A stretch of 64,000 nucleotides of DNA from Cognatundibacterium crateris (lineage in GTDB: Bacteria; Pseudomonadota; Gammaproteobacteria; Burkholderiales; Burkholderiaceae_D). The notes under the pieces are model-generated. The model saw nothing but the letters and a program-made list of their open reading frames with translations. It was not told where the DNA came from and searched no databases. Where the stretch lies: the NCBI RefSeq assembly GCF_010078235.1, contig NZ_JAABOS010000005.1, positions 137,675-201,674 of the forward strand, given 5' to 3'. How positions within the stretch are numbered: the stretch's first letter is position 1; every line of letters begins with the position of its first letter. Made by a program: the position numbers and the translations under genes. Of this stretch, positions 22,248-29,826 are shown piece after piece.

Positions 22248-22556
22248 AGGGATACCAAGCGGGAAAGAGTAAAAATTTTACTGACGGCGCAGTCAGATAA
22301 TGAGTTTCCTCATTGTAACGGTCTTTTACCCTTTAGAAATTCAGAAAAAGTCAGCGCAAGAATGAGAAACATTTCCTTGAGTTAACAATTGTTTGAATCT
22401 TGCTGCTTGTAAATACTTAAATACTGAGTAGTATGAAATTCAGGAAAATAGAACCAAAGCTGGGCTACGGGGGCGCAAGGGGCGCCAAAAAGATGTGAAA
22501 TAGTTGTTTTTCGGGTAATTATTTGGCAAGGCAAATCAGCTGATGTGGGGCCAGAG

Positions 22557-23906
22557 ATGGAAAATCAATTTGAATATTTCGACTTATCTGCGCCAGCACC
22601 GGCGACCACAGCGGCTGCCAGTGCCAGTCAGCCTGCGAGTGTCAGTCAGGAAGTAGCGCAACATAATCGTCTGAAATATCTGATTGATAATACGCCTGCG
22701 ATTATTTACAGCAGCGTACCGACCGGCGATTTCAAAATGACTTATGTCAGCTCCAACGCGCAGCGCATACTGGGCTACGATTCCGCGATGATGGTATCCG
22801 ACCCGAATTTCTGGTTTGATCACATTCATCCTGAGGATGTGCCGCAGATATTTTCCAGTCTGGCCATGCTGTTTTCAGAAGGCGAGCGCACTTACGAATA
22901 CCGTTTCAAAAACAGCAATGGCCATTACATCTGGATGCACGATATGTTGCGCCTGATCCGCGATGAGGCTGGCAATCCACTTGAAGTAGTGGGCTCGCTG
23001 ACCGACATCAGCGAACGCAAGGCGATGGAAGAGTCGCTGCAAAAAAAAGGCGAAGAGCAGAAACAGTTAATCCATAAGCTGCAAGAGGCGCAGGACCAGT
23101 TGATGCAATCGGAAAAAATGGCCTCGGTAGGTCAACTGGCCGCAGGTATCGCCCATGAAATCAATAATCCTATCGGTTTTGTAAATTCCAACATGGGATC
23201 ATTGCAGGGTTACGTAGAGAAGCTGTTTGAAGTCCTTGGACAATATGAGCAGTTAATTCTCCAGCCGCAGGCTGCTCAGTCAGCTGTCGCACGTGTCAAC
23301 GCCATCAAAAAAGAAGCCGATCTGGAATTCCTGCAGGAGGATGTGGAAGACCTGGTCAGGGAGTCTATGGATGGCCTGAAACGGGTGCGCGATATCGTGC
23401 AGTCACTCAAAGATTTTTCGCATGTCGGTGAAACCGACTGGCAAGAGGCGGATATCCATCATGGTATAGACAGTACGCTCAATATCGTGATCAATGAGAT
23501 CAAGTATAAAGCCACCGTGATTAAGGAATACGGCAATTTGCCAAATGTGCGTTGCGTCATTTCGCAAATCAATCAGGTGGTGATGAATCTGTTGGTCAAT
23601 GCCTCACATGCGATCAAGGAGAAAGGCAACATCACCATCAATACCGGATGCAAGGATGACTGGATCTGGATACGCATCAGTGATACCGGGTCCGGTATTC
23701 CGCCTGAAATCATGACACGTATTTTTGAACCGTTTTTTACGACGAAGCCGATAGGCAGCGGAACCGGTTTGGGTTTGTCTCTGTCATACGGAATTATCAA
23801 GAAACACAATGGACGTATCGAGGTGAAAAGCGAGCTGGGGCTTGGCACCAGCTTTACCATACATTTGCCGCTGCATCCGGATAAGGTGGATGCGAACAAA
23901 GAGTAA
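22557..23906 (+). CDS. PAS-domain sensor histidine kinase
   Basis: The 449-residue, apparently cytoplasmic kinase begins with a low-complexity Ala/Ser linker (residues 11-32). A PAS/PAC domain follows (about 38-158, ending in VVGSLTDISERK), then a coiled coil (160-188). The dimerisation domain has the phosphoacceptor His200 in GIAHEINNPIGFVNSN. The ATPase domain has N box MNLLVNASHAI near 345, G1 ISDTGSGIP and G2 GTGLGLSLSYGI. The HExxNP H-box places it with the NtrB/HWE-like complex kinases. It has no receiver of its own and is followed by genes with three receivers. Start ATG 22557; GTG at 22545 is an alternative. Confidence 0.93.
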   Translation: MENQFEYFDLSAPAPATTAAASASQPASVSQEVAQHNRLKYLIDNTPAIIYSSVPTGDFKMTYVSSNAQRILGYDSAMMVSDPNFWFDHIHPEDVPQIFSSLAMLFSEGERTYEYRFKNSNGHYIWMHDMLRLIRDEAGNPLEVVGSLTDISERKAMEESLQKKGEEQKQLIHKLQEAQDQLMQSEKMASVGQLAAGIAHEINNPIGFVNSNMGSLQGYVEKLFEVLGQYEQLILQPQAAQSAVARVNAIKKEADLEFLQEDVEDLVRESMDGLKRVRDIVQSLKDFSHVGETDWQEADIHHGIDSTLNIVINEIKYKATVIKEYGNLPNVRCVISQINQVVMNLLVNASHAIKEKGNITINTGCKDDWIWIRISDTGSGIPPEIMTRIFEPFFTTKPIGSGTGLGLSLSYGIIKKHNGRIEVKSELGLGTSFTIHLPLHPDKVDANKE

Positions 23907-23953
23907 TCTCCGTCACAGATCAAGGACAGATCAGCGATATCAGGGTGCAGGCT

Positions 23954-26731
23954 ATGAGTCAGGAAAATACAAATAAGACCAGGGATGACTTCACTGCGAT
24001 GCTCAATATCGGAACAGATGGCATGTTCGATAGTATGAGCAGTCTGCGCTTGAGTGCCAATGAAGCCAGAATGCTTGCGACTATCAGTCCGCAGCTGGCA
24101 CAGATACGCGCACAGTTTGATCAGGCCTTACGCGAACATATCGCAGATACCCCTTTCTTGTCTTATGGCTTACCTGACAGCTTACAGCAGCGCATACATC
24201 AGCGTCAGCGTAGTTACTTTGCACTGTTATTGCAATCCAGGTCGGATAGCAGCTTTCTGGTGGACCGCAGCAAAATAGAGTTTGCCCATCAACAAATGGG
24301 ACTGAACCGCGACTGGTATTTTTCTGCTTACAGAAAATATCTGGGAGCGGTATGGGCTGATCTGCAGGATATCAAAGCGGATTACCAGCTCTCCTTCAGT
24401 GGCATGATGCTGCTGGTGTTTAAACTATGCATGTTTGACCTCGGGCTGGCGCTGGAAGTCTATTCTGAAGTCGAGAAAAAGCGTTTTTTCGAAACCTATA
24501 TCGCCGATATGCAGGTCCCGCCACCTATGCTGGCAGAAACCCGCCAGGCTGGTTTGATGGATCATTCCAAACGTAAAAAGCTCGATACGCTGCTACAGTC
24601 TTCGATAGATCATTCACCGCAGATAACCGGGCATTTGAGCGTCTGCTATCTGGGGCTGGATCAATATGAGCAAGTCGCTGAAAGCTATGGTTTTGAAGCC
24701 TCAAGACTGGTGTTGCAAACCATAGAAATGCGTTTGCGTGCTGAACTGCACGATCATGATGTGATCACCCATCTTGGGGCTGGCGAGTACATGCTGATTT
24801 TGCCTGGCCATGCTGACTCTGTCGAAGTGCTGGCACTCTGCCAGCGCGTCATGAACACTTTTACGCAAGCGATTTCCCTGATCGACCAGAAACTGAATAT
24901 GTCTTGTTGCATAGGCATAGCCATGTATCCGGACGATGGGCAATTGGCAGAGGATATTTCCAGATGCGCTGAAGTCGCATTTCGCAGAGCGCGCGAATGC
25001 GGGCATGGCAGTCTGCGTTTTTATTCATCGGCCCTGAATGGCACTGTGGATGAACAGATAGCGCTGGCCTCAGATTTGCGCTTAGCGATACAGGACAATC
25101 AGCTGCAATTGTTTTATCAGCCCAAGGCGGATCTGCGCCACGGCAAAATCACTGGTTGCGAGGCTTTACTTCGCTGGCAGCATCCAACACGGGGTGAAAT
25201 ATCACCGGCAAAATTTGTGCCGATTGCAGAGCAATCTGATCTAATCATCGTGCTGGGCTACTGGGTGATACGACGTGCCTGTGAAGATATACAGCGTCTG
25301 CTGGCGCAACAGCTGGCGCTGCCGGTCGTGGCGATTAATGTTTCGCCACGCCAGTTGAAGGAGGTGGATTTTCCGGAACGTATGCTGGCTATCATGAATG
25401 AGTACGGCGTGACAGCAGCACAATTGTCGCTAGAGGTAACGGAGAGTGTGCTGATAGGCTGCGATGAGGAATTTGATGCCTTATTTTTCCGACTGAAAAA
25501 CCTGGGCTTCAGCCTGTCGCTGGATGATTTTGGAACGGGTTATTCTGCACTCGGTTATCTGAAGCGTTTTTCATTTGATTATGTCAAAATTGATCAGTCT
25601 TTTGTCAGGGAATTGCCTGGGCATCTGAGCGATGCCTCGATCTCTAAAGCTATTATCTCGATGGCGCATAGCATGGGGATGGAGGTGATTGCTGAGGGCG
25701 TAGAGACGGAAGCGCAATGTAAGTTTTTTTCAGATAATTTATGCGAACAAGTACAAGGCTATTTCTATGCACGTCCTATGCCATTTGCGCAGTTACTGGA
25801 TTTCATACGTCAGGATATCAGTCTGAATCCACATGTATTACAGGCCACACGGCCAGAGCGTACTTTACTGCTGGTAGATGATGAACCCAATATTTTGTCT
25901 GCACTTAAACGCTTGCTGCGTAAAGATGGCTATCGCATCTTGACAGGCAACAGCGCGAGTGAAGGCTTAGAGATACTGGCCAGTGAAAATGTTGATGTCA
26001 TTATGTCGGATCAGCGCATGCCTGCTATGTCAGGTGTCGAATTTTTGCGTCAGGCCAAGGCCTTGTATCCGGATACAGTCAGGATCATCTTATCCGGCTA
26101 CTCCGAACTGCAATACATTACTGATGCGATCAACGAAGGTGCGATCTATAAGTTTCTGACCAAACCCTGGGATGATGAGCAAATACGGAAAAATATCAGT
26201 GATGCATTTCAGTTTAAGGAAATTCTCAATGAGAACCGCAGATTGAATGTGGAGATACAAAGCAGTAACCGGGAACTGGTGAAAACCAATCGCCAGCTAT
26301 CAGACATTTTGAAACAGAAGCAGAATCAGATACAAAGAGATGAAGTCAGCATTGGTGTGATCCGCGAAATTCTGCATCAGATACCATTTCCCCTGATCGG
26401 GATTGATGATGAAGACCGCATCGCTTTTTGCAATCTGCAGGCGGAAGAGTTATTGCCCGGCGCTGCAGTGAATCTGGATAATGAGCTGCACCAGGTATTT
26501 CCTGAGCTGGCGCAGCGTTTAAACAGTGCTGATCAACAGGGCTTGATTTCTGTGCAGATCAGCGGGAAAACTTACCATGTCGATTGCCGCGCAATGGGAA
26601 AACACTCTGCCTCGAATGGACGTATTATTATTTTTCTTCCGGTGGCAGGAATGAGTGAAGCGGGGAGTCAGGGAACTACGTACTCTCGCGCAGAGTCTGG
26701 CGCGAAACATGATGCAATAGTGGGAAAATAA
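23954..26731 (+). CDS. Globin-coupled GGDEF(degenerate)-EAL-receiver-PAS protein
   Basis: A 925-residue cyclic-di-GMP protein. An N-terminal globin-coupled sensor spans residues 25-185, with a candidate proximal haem His112 in FAHQQMGLNRDWYFSAYR. The GGDEF domain (205-360) has GAGEY at 275-279 in place of GG(D/E)EF, so it is probably inactive. The EAL domain (365-620) keeps the catalytic signatures: Glu403 in CEALLRW, NVSPRQ, LEVTES, DDFGTGYSAL, KIDQSF and AEGVE. A receiver (636-750) has VDDEPN, phosphoacceptor Asp686 in SDQRMP, and TKPW. A coiled coil and a PAS-like tail follow. It is a likely phosphodiesterase gated by a gas ligand and by phosphorylation. Start ATG 23954; GTG 23945 is possible. 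Confidence 0.92.
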   Translation: MSQENTNKTRDDFTAMLNIGTDGMFDSMSSLRLSANEARMLATISPQLAQIRAQFDQALREHIADTPFLSYGLPDSLQQRIHQRQRSYFALLLQSRSDSSFLVDRSKIEFAHQQMGLNRDWYFSAYRKYLGAVWADLQDIKADYQLSFSGMMLLVFKLCMFDLGLALEVYSEVEKKRFFETYIADMQVPPPMLAETRQAGLMDHSKRKKLDTLLQSSIDHSPQITGHLSVCYLGLDQYEQVAESYGFEASRLVLQTIEMRLRAELHDHDVITHLGAGEYMLILPGHADSVEVLALCQRVMNTFTQAISLIDQKLNMSCCIGIAMYPDDGQLAEDISRCAEVAFRRARECGHGSLRFYSSALNGTVDEQIALASDLRLAIQDNQLQLFYQPKADLRHGKITGCEALLRWQHPTRGEISPAKFVPIAEQSDLIIVLGYWVIRRACEDIQRLLAQQLALPVVAINVSPRQLKEVDFPERMLAIMNEYGVTAAQLSLEVTESVLIGCDEEFDALFFRLKNLGFSLSLDDFGTGYSALGYLKRFSFDYVKIDQSFVRELPGHLSDASISKAIISMAHSMGMEVIAEGVETEAQCKFFSDNLCEQVQGYFYARPMPFAQLLDFIRQDISLNPHVLQATRPERTLLLVDDEPNILSALKRLLRKDGYRILTGNSASEGLEILASENVDVIMSDQRMPAMSGVEFLRQAKALYPDTVRIILSGYSELQYITDAINEGAIYKFLTKPWDDEQIRKNISDAFQFKEILNENRRLNVEIQSSNRELVKTNRQLSDILKQKQNQIQRDEVSIGVIREILHQIPFPLIGIDDEDRIAFCNLQAEELLPGAAVNLDNELHQVFPELAQRLNSADQQGLISVQISGKTYHVDCRAMGKHSASNGRIIIFLPVAGMSEAGSQGTTYSRAESGAKHDAIVGK

Positions 26732-26764
26732 CGGAAAAAATAGCGGGAATATCAGAGGTTCTAT

Positions 26765-27607
26765 ATGCGTTCCATATCTGCAGAACAGCTTGTACGTGCG
26801 CTGGAGGAACTGCCCTCCTTGCCACAGGTATTGTCTGAATTGATCGAGGCAATCGAGCATGATAATGTGGATCAGCGCTCCATCATCATGCGGATAGCCC
26901 AGGATCAGGCCTTAACTTCTAAAACTTTGCGTCTCGCAAATTCTTCTTTTTATGGCTTGTCATATCGGGTCAATTCGCTGTCTGACGCTGTCTCTATCCT
27001 CGGTTTTCGCAGTTTGCGCACACTGGTGACCAGCACTGCAATCGCCAATCTGTTACACCGCTTTGTGTTGGAGCGGAATGACGTGGACTATTTTCTCGAG
27101 CATTCTATTTCGGTCGCGATTTTTGCCAAATTGCTGGCCGCGCACATCTGTGCCAATCAGGAGCAAGCTTTTACCACCGGGCTGATCCATGACCTGGGTA
27201 AGTTAGCGTTGGTGACAAAATTCCCTGGCGAATATGCTGCGGTCAAGCGCTATCAGAAAGAGCAGGCCTGTGCGCGCTATGAGGCTGAAAATGCAGTGCT
27301 ATCTATGAGCCATGCATCGATAGGGGCAATGCTTGCGCGCAGATGGCGCTTTCCGCTCGAGATGCAGCAGGCGGTCAGTGCGCACCATGATCCGATGACG
27401 GCAGAAACCAGTGAATTGTCGATGTTGATTACGGTTGCGAATATTTTTGCCAAAGTGCATGCGAGCGATGAGGACCGCATGCGTTTGCTGCGTGAATCCA
27501 GTTATGCATGGCAGCGTCTGGAATTGAATGAAGAATTGTGTCTAAGGATTTTTGCGACGGAGAGGCAGCAATATGCCGAAATCAGCCAGATTTTACTCAG
27601 TCACTGA
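26765..27607 (+). CDS. HDOD domain protein
   Basis: The 280-residue product is a single HDOD domain (near residues 12-210), shown by ELPSLPQVLSELIEAI, SKTLRLANSSFYGL, the helix with AVSILGFRSLRTLV, and the HDLGKLALVTKFP segment. The family is related to HD phosphohydrolases and usually acts as a signalling adaptor, without cyclic-di-GMP hydrolysis. Here the HD pair (IHDLGK) is present. It lies 33 bp after the globin-EAL gene and 87 bp before the receiver/HD-GYP gene, so co-expression is likely. Confidence 0.9.
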   Translation: MRSISAEQLVRALEELPSLPQVLSELIEAIEHDNVDQRSIIMRIAQDQALTSKTLRLANSSFYGLSYRVNSLSDAVSILGFRSLRTLVTSTAIANLLHRFVLERNDVDYFLEHSISVAIFAKLLAAHICANQEQAFTTGLIHDLGKLALVTKFPGEYAAVKRYQKEQACARYEAENAVLSMSHASIGAMLARRWRFPLEMQQAVSAHHDPMTAETSELSMLITVANIFAKVHASDEDRMRLLRESSYAWQRLELNEELCLRIFATERQQYAEISQILLSH

Positions 27608-27694
27608 TCGTACTGGCTTAGGCGGAAGAGCAGGCTGAACGCTAGTGTTTTAACGCAGCACCACCAACCACTTAGCCCATTTGGGAAAGCAGGC

Positions 27695-29023
27695 ATGATG
27701 AATACAGAATTGCATGCTGAGCCGCAGACCGAACGTGTCTACCGCATATTATGCGTGGACGATGAGCCGAATATCTTGTCATCGTTGCGCCGTTTGTTCC
27801 GTGGTAAAGGATATCAGGTACTGATCGCTAATGGCGGCCAGGAAGGACTGGCTACGCTGGAAACAGAAACGGTTGATCTGGTCATTTCAGATATGCGTAT
27901 GCCGGTGATGGATGGTGCAGTTTTCCTCGAACATGTCAGGGCACGCTGGCCAGATACCATACGCCTGCTGCTGACCGGCTATGCTGACATACAATCGATC
28001 ATTGATGCGATTAACCGAGGCGAAATTTATCGCTACATCACCAAGCCCTGGGACGATAACGATATCGTCCTGATCGTGCGGCAGGCGCTGGAACGCAAAG
28101 CGCTGGAGCAGGAAAAACTCAGACTGGAAGAGCTGACCTTAAGGCAGAACGAGGAATTAAAAACACTCAATGCCAGTCTGGAAATCAAAGTCGAAGAGCG
28201 CACAGCCGATCTCAGAAAAGCGCACGAATCACTGCTGACCGCAAATGACAAACTCAAGGACAGTTTTCTGACCTCGATCAAGGTGTTTTCCAGCGTGATC
28301 GAAATGCGCGGCGGGAAGTTGATGGGGCACTCGCGTCGGGTGGCTGATCTGGCGCGCAAGATCGCGCGGCGCATGGGGCTGGAAAGCAAAGATACGCAAG
28401 AGATTTTTGTCGCTGCCTTGTTGGCAGATATAGGCAAAATCGGATTTTCTGACGAATTGCTGGAGACGCCGTTGAATCAGATGAATGGTGATCAGCTTGG
28501 TCAGTTTCACAAACACACCCTGCGCGCCGAGCAGTTACTGATGCCGCTGCAGGATTTGCAGGGCGCGGCGCGCATTATCCGCTTCCAGCATGAGCGTTTC
28601 GACGGTCGAGGTTTTCCGGATGCGATCGCGGGAGACCAGATTCCGCTGGGTTCCAGGATACTGGCGCTGGCTGGCGATTATGACAGTTTGCAAATAGGCT
28701 GCCTGGTCCCAAAACGTGTGCATCCGGATGATGCCCTGCCGCTCATCGTGCGTGGTGCCGGTAACCGTTATGATCCCAAGGTGGTTGAAGCTTTTCAACA
28801 AGTCATGGGTAACGTCAGCGAAGAACCGCACGACAAAGAAGTCATGGTGCCGCAGTTAGTGCCTGGCATGGTGTTGTCGGCAGATGTGGTATCCAAAGAA
28901 GGCATGTTATTGCTACCCGCCGACTTTGTGCTGGATGAAGGCGTGATAGAAAAGCTCAGGCTTTTCAGTGAACCTGTACATGGCCGGATGTTTGTGCGTA
29001 TCTATACCAACAGGAGGAAATGA
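27695..29023 (+). CDS. Receiver-degenerate HD-GYP response regulator
   Basis: The 442-residue product begins with a receiver (residues 16-135; VDDEPN, phosphoacceptor Asp in ISDMRMP, TKPW). A long coiled coil follows (135-195), then an RpfG-like HD-GYP domain (about 195-370). The signature HD pair is lost: LLADIGKI has Ala244 where the family has His. The GYP motif reads GFP in HERFDGRGFP. Cyclic-di-GMP hydrolysis is therefore doubtful. Its layout recalls HnoD, a degenerate HD-GYP protein that modulates an EAL partner in the Shewanella nitric-oxide network (known biology; the analogy is inference). Its stop lies within the start region of the next receiver gene. Confidence 0.92.
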   Translation: MMNTELHAEPQTERVYRILCVDDEPNILSSLRRLFRGKGYQVLIANGGQEGLATLETETVDLVISDMRMPVMDGAVFLEHVRARWPDTIRLLLTGYADIQSIIDAINRGEIYRYITKPWDDNDIVLIVRQALERKALEQEKLRLEELTLRQNEELKTLNASLEIKVEERTADLRKAHESLLTANDKLKDSFLTSIKVFSSVIEMRGGKLMGHSRRVADLARKIARRMGLESKDTQEIFVAALLADIGKIGFSDELLETPLNQMNGDQLGQFHKHTLRAEQLLMPLQDLQGAARIIRFQHERFDGRGFPDAIAGDQIPLGSRILALAGDYDSLQIGCLVPKRVHPDDALPLIVRGAGNRYDPKVVEAFQQVMGNVSEEPHDKEVMVPQLVPGMVLSADVVSKEGMLLLPADFVLDEGVIEKLRLFSEPVHGRMFVRIYTNRRK

Positions 29024-29553
29024 TGCGACGAATTCTTTTACTGGATGATGAACAAAATGTGCTCTCAGCCTTAAAGCGCAGTTTCAGAAGCATCGCAGGC
29101 AGCGATCAGCTCAGGATAGATACCTACAATGTGCCGGAGCAAGCATTGGCGCATTTGCAGGATACGGCTTACGATTTTATTATCTCTGATTATCACATGC
29201 CATCCATGAATGGCATTGCTTTCCTGGCTCTGGCCAAGGGGATACAGCCAGATGCGGTGCGCATGATGTTGAGCGCGTCTGCTGAGTTCAAAACCATACT
29301 CGGTGCGATCAATGAGGCAGAAGCGTTTCGCTATATCGCCAAGCCCTGGACACAGGAAGAGTTGACGGATACCTATCAGGCCGCTTTGCAAAAGCGCGAT
29401 CAGATACTCGAAGACCGGCGGCTGGCCGATGAGTTACGCGTGCAGCGCGGTCAGCTATCACCGCAGGAAGAGGCACTGCGCAGGCTGGAAGAGAGTGAAC
29501 CAGGTATCACCAAAGTGAAGTGGGGCGCTGATGGCTCGGTCATGCTGGAATAA
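29023..29553 (+). CDS. Response regulator, stand-alone receiver with C-terminal tail
   Basis: The 176-residue product is a receiver domain (residues 2-122; LDDEQN, phosphoacceptor Asp in ISDYHMP, AKPW) followed by a helical tail and a short beta-like end (GITKVKWGADGSVMLE). No DNA-binding or enzymatic output domain is visible, so it may act by protein contact or as a phosphate sink. The start is ATG 29023 rather than 29020, because AGGAGG at 29012-29017 sits at the proper distance. It is translationally coupled to the upstream gene. Its receiver resembles the other two of the cluster (shared KPW end), suggesting duplication. Confidence 0.9.
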   Translation: MRRILLLDDEQNVLSALKRSFRSIAGSDQLRIDTYNVPEQALAHLQDTAYDFIISDYHMPSMNGIAFLALAKGIQPDAVRMMLSASAEFKTILGAINEAEAFRYIAKPWTQEELTDTYQAALQKRDQILEDRRLADELRVQRGQLSPQEEALRRLEESEPGITKVKWGADGSVMLE

Positions 29554-29826
29554 GTCGTAGAGCTTGCGTAAAACCACCCCGGCGGCGTGGCCTCGCTTGG
29601 GGTAACTGGGCGTAAGTCCTGAATAAAATGATACTTGTCTTGATAGATTCTTTGCTGCTGTTGGGCAGGTGGACACTGCGCGACTGGCTTTGTAATGGTT
29701 TGAAACAGGCTTGGTCTGGTAAAATGCCGCCTTTCTGTCCTGTTCTGTAGCCGGTTGTCTGATCTCAGTATCGTCACTGCGATATCTTCCGCTTCACAGT
29801 ATGACCTCTTTTTACTGAAACTCTGT
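29554..29826. other. Gap of about 270 bp upstream of trmB
   Basis: Follows the signalling operon and precedes trmB. It has no convincing terminator or open reading frame. The trmB promoter is presumably near 29690-29740, but I see no clear consensus hexamers. Confidence 0.4.

Follow-up and report, generated by a model that had tools for sequence, protein, structure and literature searches.

A conserved two-component/cyclic-di-GMP operon with an unusual, evolving globin front end in Cognatundibacterium crateris

Results

Gene content of the locus

The window, i.e. the whole 64,000-nucleotide stretch of Cognatundibacterium crateris DNA that was analysed (positions 137,675 to 201,674 of contig NZ_JAABOS010000005.1, assembly GCF_010078235.1), carries at 22557-29553 five genes of a two-component/cyclic-di-GMP operon with a globin domain in its predicted phosphodiesterase. 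The locus is an Undibacterium version of an operon that recurs across the family. An earlier note, made from the sequence alone, had described five same-strand genes in this order with short gaps, and the open reading frame (ORF) calls and Pfam domains agree with it: the intergenic gaps are, in order, 47, 33, 87 and -4 nt. The genes and the features within them are listed below.

22557..23906, + strand: HK1, PAS histidine kinase (PAS_3, HisKA, HATPase_c); ATG start, longer GTG start at 22545
23954..26731, + strand: globin-degenerate GGDEF-EAL-REC-PAS protein (REC, receiver domain), 925 amino acids, predicted phosphodiesterase and response regulator; ATG start, GTG at 23945
24035..24478, + strand: protoglobin domain, residues 28-175 (Pfam Protoglobin 45.7 bits, cut-off 25)
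24131..24133, + strand: Arg60, aligned with the distal B10 Tyr (profile alignment)
24287..24289, + strand: His112, in the proximal haem-ligand column, aligned with the His of HemAT and 2w31
24572..25003, + strand: GGDEF domain with the degenerate motif GAGEY (Pfam and motif reading)
25073..25777, + strand: EAL domain with intact catalytic motifs (Pfam EAL 240.3 bits)
25868..26197, + strand: receiver domain of the EAL protein (Pfam Response_reg)
26360..26524, + strand: weak PAS-like C-terminal domain (PAS_8, E 0.032, below cut-off)
26765..27607, + strand: HDOD protein (Pfam HDOD 187.2 bits)
27695..29023, + strand: REC-degenerate HD-GYP protein (Pfam Response_reg and HD_5; NCBIfam NF053512)
29020..29553, + strand: lone receiver (Pfam Response_reg alone), overlapping the preceding gene by 4 nt

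The kinase, described previously as lacking a receiver of its own, matched only PAS_3, HisKA and HATPase_c in the Pfam scan, and in the lone receiver the same scan matched Response_reg and no output domain. Motif reading likewise bore out the degeneracy that had been noted in both cyclic-di-GMP domains: the GGDEF domain reads GAGEY, and the HD-GYP-type protein has AD for HD, QHE for HHE and GFP for GYP. The C-terminal PAS domain assigned to the EAL protein is sub-threshold in the window but passes the cut-off in the orthologue of locus L057 (PAS_GdpP, 29.8 bits, cut-off 27). The EAL motifs that matter for catalysis read EALLRW, NVSPRQL, EVTES, DDFGTGYS, VKID, EGVE and QG. Compared with two sister species, the five genes have ratios of nonsynonymous to synonymous substitution (dN/dS, NG86) of 0.016-0.097 per gene, and the named records nearest to the globin-EAL protein come from U. 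curvum (95%) and U. rugosum (90%). A scan of the locus for promoters and terminators barely exceeded shuffled sequences (promoter-like, 11 vs a mean of 9.3; terminator-like, 8 vs a mean of 6.2).

Recurrence across the genus and family

The module was followed in 40 loci (L numbers) from 38 genomes (G numbers), with G025 and G074 giving two each. Twenty loci of the genus (19 genomes) were selected by their match to the EAL protein and 20 from outside it (19 genomes, 16 genera) from matches to NF053512, so the EAL-protein and HD-GYP-type counts are partly due to selection; the score thresholds for all locus counts were set by us. In the genus and outside it, respectively, the REC-PAS protein occurs in 20 and 17 loci, an EAL domain on that protein in 20 and 14, GGDEF in 13 and 11, a globin in 8 and 2, the HDOD protein in 9 and 17, the HD-GYP type in 18 and 20, the lone receiver in 17 and 13, HK1 in 19 and 10, and a second kinase, HK2, in 12 and 16. 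Over the 40 loci this amounts to 30 with the lone receiver, 26 with HDOD, 29 with HK1 and 28 with HK2. These thresholds miss the L120 kinase, whose HK1 match is split, and the L113 EAL-REC protein, which has no PAS; L109 and L116 are counted as HK1 though they lie on the HK2 side of the kinase tree, the L117 lone receiver, with an ORF call that is too long, was set to present by hand, and L053 and L066 are on short contigs. L010 and L013, duplicates of L068 and L062, were omitted from alignments and trees.

The presence of this gene set in many genomes indicates that its co-occurrence is not due to chance. The gene set recurs among the 40 module loci; the earlier note had held that its claim would fall if the order were conserved in no relative, and this check did not refute the claim. 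NF053512 passes its cut-off in 16 of the 43 genus genomes and in 152 of the 392 family genomes (the 16 included), with matches at E 1e-100 in 21 of the 44 genera of the family. No publication on this operon was found by title or abstract start among the open-licence papers searched.

The operon lies in a variable slot, the interval between a thioesterase gene and trmB (window 22248-29754). The two flanking genes adjoin each other, leaving the slot empty, in L138 (G002), L142 (G023) and L146 (G012), and G023 has its module elsewhere on the same contig; other genes fill the slot in L139 and L145, and that of U. squillarum (L021) holds a lone 672-amino-acid globin-like GGDEF-EAL protein. None of the 10 trmB regions fetched contained the module, with L137, L140, L141, L143 and L144 being uninformative on the site because the thioesterase was not seen there. 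The empty or otherwise filled slots of relatives rule out an operon bound to its chromosomal site.

In three loci (L118 6747-10857; L123 7622-11756; L124 8065-12196) the module is interrupted by a trio of genes, which encode an Arf/MglA-like GTPase, a histidine kinase and a REC-MshEN-T2SSE ATPase; in G023 the trio stands on a separate contig, outside the module (L136 3462-7666). Its domains were scanned in L118, and the other trio ATPases are 71-76% identical.

Kinases and receivers

The window kinase, with the H-box AHEINNP, clusters with the other HK1 rows of the kinase tree, where HK1 and HK2 rows separate; the deep forks are modestly supported, and the bootstrap of the tree had not settled. 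HK2 is missing from the window and its two sister species, which leaves HK1 as the operon's only kinase. Locus L056, over the 20 kb read, has HK1, the EAL-REC protein and HDOD and is devoid of the HD-GYP-type protein, the lone receiver and HK2, which pairs HK1 with the receiver of the EAL protein, while the 4-nt overlap of the HK2 gene with the HD-GYP-protein gene in L052 and L062 pairs HK2 with the HD-GYP type. The three window receivers are 38-51% identical to one another and all match the same family model. Judged by eye from the translations, all three retain the receiver motifs, namely the pair of acidic residues, the Asp that accepts the phosphoryl group and the Lys. The receiver of the EAL protein is 69-80% identical to those of ten module relatives outside the window's clade; compared with L052-L055, the receiver is the most conserved part of this protein and the globin and GGDEF domains the least.

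The globin domain and its haem ligand

The earlier note had proposed a haem-type sensor fused to a phosphodiesterase protein, which the Protoglobin and EAL scores bear out: the protoglobin is fused N-terminally to an output domain, as in globin-coupled sensors. A profile of 11 globins matched HemAT (E 7.9e-13), 2w31, 7o0i (annotated as an anti-anti-sigma factor), 8h17 and the AfGcHK globin. Ten of the 11 are module globins, among which three closely related species of the window's clade count separately; the eleventh is the non-module L021 protein. The window and L050-L053 have His in the proximal column, as does L021, the separate protein, whereas in 5 of the 10 module globins this His is replaced by Gln (L054, L065, L109, L115) or Leu (L055). 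In the B10 column Arg is found in the window, L050 and L051, Phe in L052, Met in L053, Ser in L054 and L115, His in L109, Glu in L065 and Val in L021; Tyr occurs in L055 alone, which has lost the proximal His. L065 (47.5 bits), L115 (36.1 bits) and L109 (99.5 bits) are weak members, so that their columns are less sure. Unlike oxygen sensors with their distal Tyr, the window globin has Arg60 in this column and no Tyr within residues 45-64. In DosC the corresponding pair is distal Tyr43 and proximal His98 (PMC5549716; here and below, published systems are given as described in excerpts of the cited papers).

An AlphaFold model of the globin, built from four sequences, is nearly all helical (pTM 0.70, mean pLDDT 73). 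A VIA-align search with it placed sensor domains of globin type, or the globin 8h17, in its first seven rows (Z 6.8-6.4, root-mean-square deviation (rmsd) 4.0-4.5), the best being the AfGcHK globin (Z 6.8, rmsd 4.2, 133 aligned), tied with other globins. The predicted structure supports a globin fold and nothing beyond it. The window globin probably still binds haem, in a non-standard distal pocket, and because of that pocket the sensing of nitric oxide (NO), carbon monoxide (CO) or redox state would be at least as likely as stable oxygen sensing. The globin domain has a dN/dS of 0.05-0.06 relative to the two sister species.

Within the genus, Protoglobin passes its cut-off in 7 of the 43 genomes, and all seven matches are inside the module. 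Two weaker matches, in G010 and G037, resemble flavohaemoglobin genes.

Exchange and loss of the input domain

The N-terminus of the EAL protein is of several types: globin-GGDEF, globin without GGDEF (L065, L109), MASE1-PAS-GGDEF (L057), HAMP-PAS-GAF-GGDEF (L066, L067) or none (L059-L063, L068, L114). In the six genus loci without it (L059-L063, L068) the kinase and EAL genes are 46-85 nt apart, which leaves no space for an overlooked globin. A tree of 39 EAL-REC cores has a 16-row clade (support 95/99) that unites the genus's eight globin proteins with L115, L056 and six proteins that lack the N-terminus; L109 falls outside it, and L065 is a long branch. Placed on this tree, the His-less label (L109 included) needs four changes, with the starred branches forcing four, and its clustering does not exceed that of shuffled labels, 96 of 500 shuffles being as low.

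The 16-row clade is best read as having had a globin in its ancestor, with the His, or the domain as a whole, then lost repeatedly; a gain of the His is the less likely direction, since it is present in the known structures of sensor globins that bind haem. The globin is an exchangeable front end, and relatives appear repeatedly to have lost its haem anchor or the domain itself. Recombination with an L021-like protein was also considered and has no support, as the identity to L021 (34%) lies within the 25-38% found for five genus module globins outside the window's clade.

HD-GYP-type, HDOD and lone receiver proteins

The HD-GYP-type protein of the window passes the NCBIfam model NF053512, 'NosR family', with 569.6 bits (cut-off 400). 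In an alignment of 38 such proteins (the window's included, plus Marinobacter L011 and L133), the HD pair begins with H in 17, A in 14, L in 3, K in 2, V in 1 and I in 1; HHE begins with Gln in 26 and with His in 12, and the Tyr of GYP is replaced by Phe in 30. Hence, degeneracy of HD-GYP is common, not uniform. In L060 (6067-7379, G021) the REC-HD-GYP gene is split into two ORFs, owing to a broken gene or a sequencing error.

The HDOD protein and the lone receiver, previously regarded as unexplained additions, are not odd ones, being present in 26 and 30 of the 40 module loci; the same counts rule them out as accidental neighbours. SadB, which combines HDOD with a YbaK-like domain, is reported to bind cyclic-di-GMP, although the binding domain is not settled (PMC6543031).

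Other haem sensors of the genome

The sole HNOB (H-NOX) match of the window genome lies on contig C1 and is adjoined by a 315-amino-acid kinase with the motif HEINNP (L128 6850-8396); profile searches of 16 kb around the pair found no receiver. The kinase linked to H-NOX sits on a very long branch (6.48) of the kinase tree and gets no firm placement there. The single FIST match (contig C34) stands beside a REC-HD-GYP protein and a large hybrid kinase. This REC-HD-GYP has intact motifs (MHDIGK, HHE, GYP) and scores 156.4 bits against NF053512, below its cut-off, so in this case the name 'NosR' of the model is no link between the module and NosP. With H-NOX, FIST and globin, this genome holds three potential haem sensors side by side; across the genus, H-NOX occurs in 3 and FIST in 25 of the 43 genomes.

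In L056 (10979-15814) the module stands head-to-head with a gene for FIST/NosP, after which comes one for a GGDEF-EAL-REC protein; in G042 (L131) and G028 (L132) FIST also has a similar GGDEF-EAL-REC neighbour, away from any module. In L065 (2758-6492) the module copy, with its His-less globin-like domain, adjoins the gene for the alpha subunit of respiratory nitrate reductase.

Discussion

The signalling operon is real and conserved; it is of an ordinary kind, and what is unusual is its evolving globin front end. From these results a hypothesis regarding its mechanism may be put forward, to which we give even chances as a whole: HK1 acts on the receivers, the EAL protein integrates the globin signal with phosphorylation, and the HD-GYP-like, HDOD and lone receiver proteins serve as partners. 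As the operon structure and the similarity of the receivers suggest, HK1 would sense through its PAS domain and phosphorylate the operon's receivers. The EAL enzyme, with its intact motifs, is predicted to degrade cyclic-di-GMP and may integrate, within a single polypeptide, the inputs from its N-terminal globin and from its C-terminal REC-PAS. By analogy with HnoD and HnoB, the REC-degenerate HD-GYP protein would be a partner without enzyme activity, tuning the EAL protein according to its phosphorylation. The HDOD protein could be a non-catalytic partner or effector, perhaps one that binds cyclic-di-GMP, and the lone receiver a phosphate sink or shuttle. The globin would be an exchangeable, dispensable input, with NO, CO, redox state or oxygen as candidate signals. 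Somewhat short of even, we place the reading of the module family as a series in which a haem globin input becomes haem-free and is then deleted, several times, with the kinase, receivers and HD-GYP-like partner kept; early in that series would stand the window globin, which has the haem ligand but Arg for the distal Tyr, as a gas or redox sensor of non-canonical type.

Several points weigh against this explanation. Of the 38 aligned HD-GYP-type proteins 7 retain the HD pair, so family-wide catalytic loss is not established. In three otherwise similar modules (L108 8261-9109; L127 9788-10684; L116 6416-7261) the ORF of the REC-PAS protein lacks an EAL domain, and hydrolysis of cyclic-di-GMP by this protein is therefore not universal in the module. 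The globin model is of middling quality, Foldseek gave no match to it with E below 0.001 (the first six rows are globins with E above 0.2), and VIA-align Z stays below 8 throughout, with sensor globins tied with ordinary haemoglobins. The roles of the HDOD protein and the lone receiver are proposed by analogy, the same receivers could also be supplied by other kinases that the genome encodes, and the link to NO rests on single neighbourhoods.

Alternatively, the window globin may already be haem-free or a structural spacer, leaving control of the EAL enzyme to phosphorylation and the other partners. The Gln or Leu in half of the module globins, the absence of the whole domain from close relatives, the B10 column of the window without Tyr and the place of the globin among the least conserved domains all speak for this; however, the window retains H112, as do both sister species, L052, L053 and U. 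squillarum L021, and the low dN/dS of the globin also argues against it, and we regard it as unlikely. As a further alternative, the H-NOX/kinase pair of the genome (and its NosP locus) might feed the module receivers in an NO circuit, with the globin as an accessory input for NO or oxygen. For this, profiles found no receiver by the pair in the 16 kb read, a FIST/NosP gene lies divergent to one copy of the module (L056), and another copy (L065) adjoins a nitrate reductase gene, but these two are single cases, the H-NOX-linked kinase is the very long branch mentioned above, and H-NOX is confined to three genus genomes, the sister G017 having the module without it; such a circuit is quite doubtful. 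That the real output is a pilus or secretion ATPase, with cyclic-di-GMP turnover secondary, is improbable: the inserted trio and a Marinobacter relative of its ATPase (L011, 54% identical) upstream of EAL-REC, HD-GYP-type and lone receiver genes would fit it, but full-length REC-MshEN-ATPase matches occur in only 3 of the 43 genus genomes, the window genome not among them.

In the explanation that we prefer, with HK1 and the two-input EAL protein at its centre, the module is a signalling core with interchangeable inputs in one genus (His globin, His-less globin, membrane or GAF sensors, or none), which allows the gain, retuning and loss of a haem sensor without breakage of the pathway to be tested directly. 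It also bears on the poorly defined roles of HDOD and degenerate HD-GYP proteins in cyclic-di-GMP circuits.

Among known systems, the Hno proteins of Shewanella offer the closest logic named by the earlier note. There HnoK acts with HnoB, HnoC and HnoD, and HnoD suppresses HnoB (PMC6335343, PMC8846402). By these descriptions, both systems have one kinase, a REC-EAL protein with intact motifs and a REC-degenerate HD-GYP protein, and the domain content of the window supports the likeness to HnoK/HnoB/HnoD. They differ in that the window locus has no H-NOX (no HNOB in the five proteins), the H-NOX being elsewhere in the genome, in that the window EAL protein carries its own globin and GGDEF, and in that HDOD and a lone receiver are present, not the transcription factor described as third regulator. 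The suggestion that the locus was independently assembled finds no support, as the module recurs across the family and its globin, only one kind of input among several, is missing or His-less in many relatives.

The NosP-NosK-NosR system of Burkholderia, in which NosK phosphorylates a degenerate REC-HD-GYP protein (PMC12570481), shares the kinase and this type of partner, the window protein passing the NCBI NosR model. As far as that system is described, the differences are that the window operon has no FIST gene, that its kinase has a PAS domain, and that the FIST-linked REC-HD-GYP of the window genome is the one with intact motifs, below the NF053512 cut-off. A globin-GGDEF-EAL fusion as such is already known from DcpG, and a globin-phosphodiesterase is also known from V. 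fluvialis (PMC10882959); compared with DcpG as described, the window protein has a degenerate GGDEF and an added C-terminal REC-PAS, and its gene stands in a kinase operon. Finally, the RsbR globins of Bacillus, which include haem and non-haem forms (PMC4976288), resemble the His-less half of the module globins in providing a globin input without the proximal His, whereas the output of the module is an EAL-REC protein, and His-bearing and His-less forms are found within one genus.

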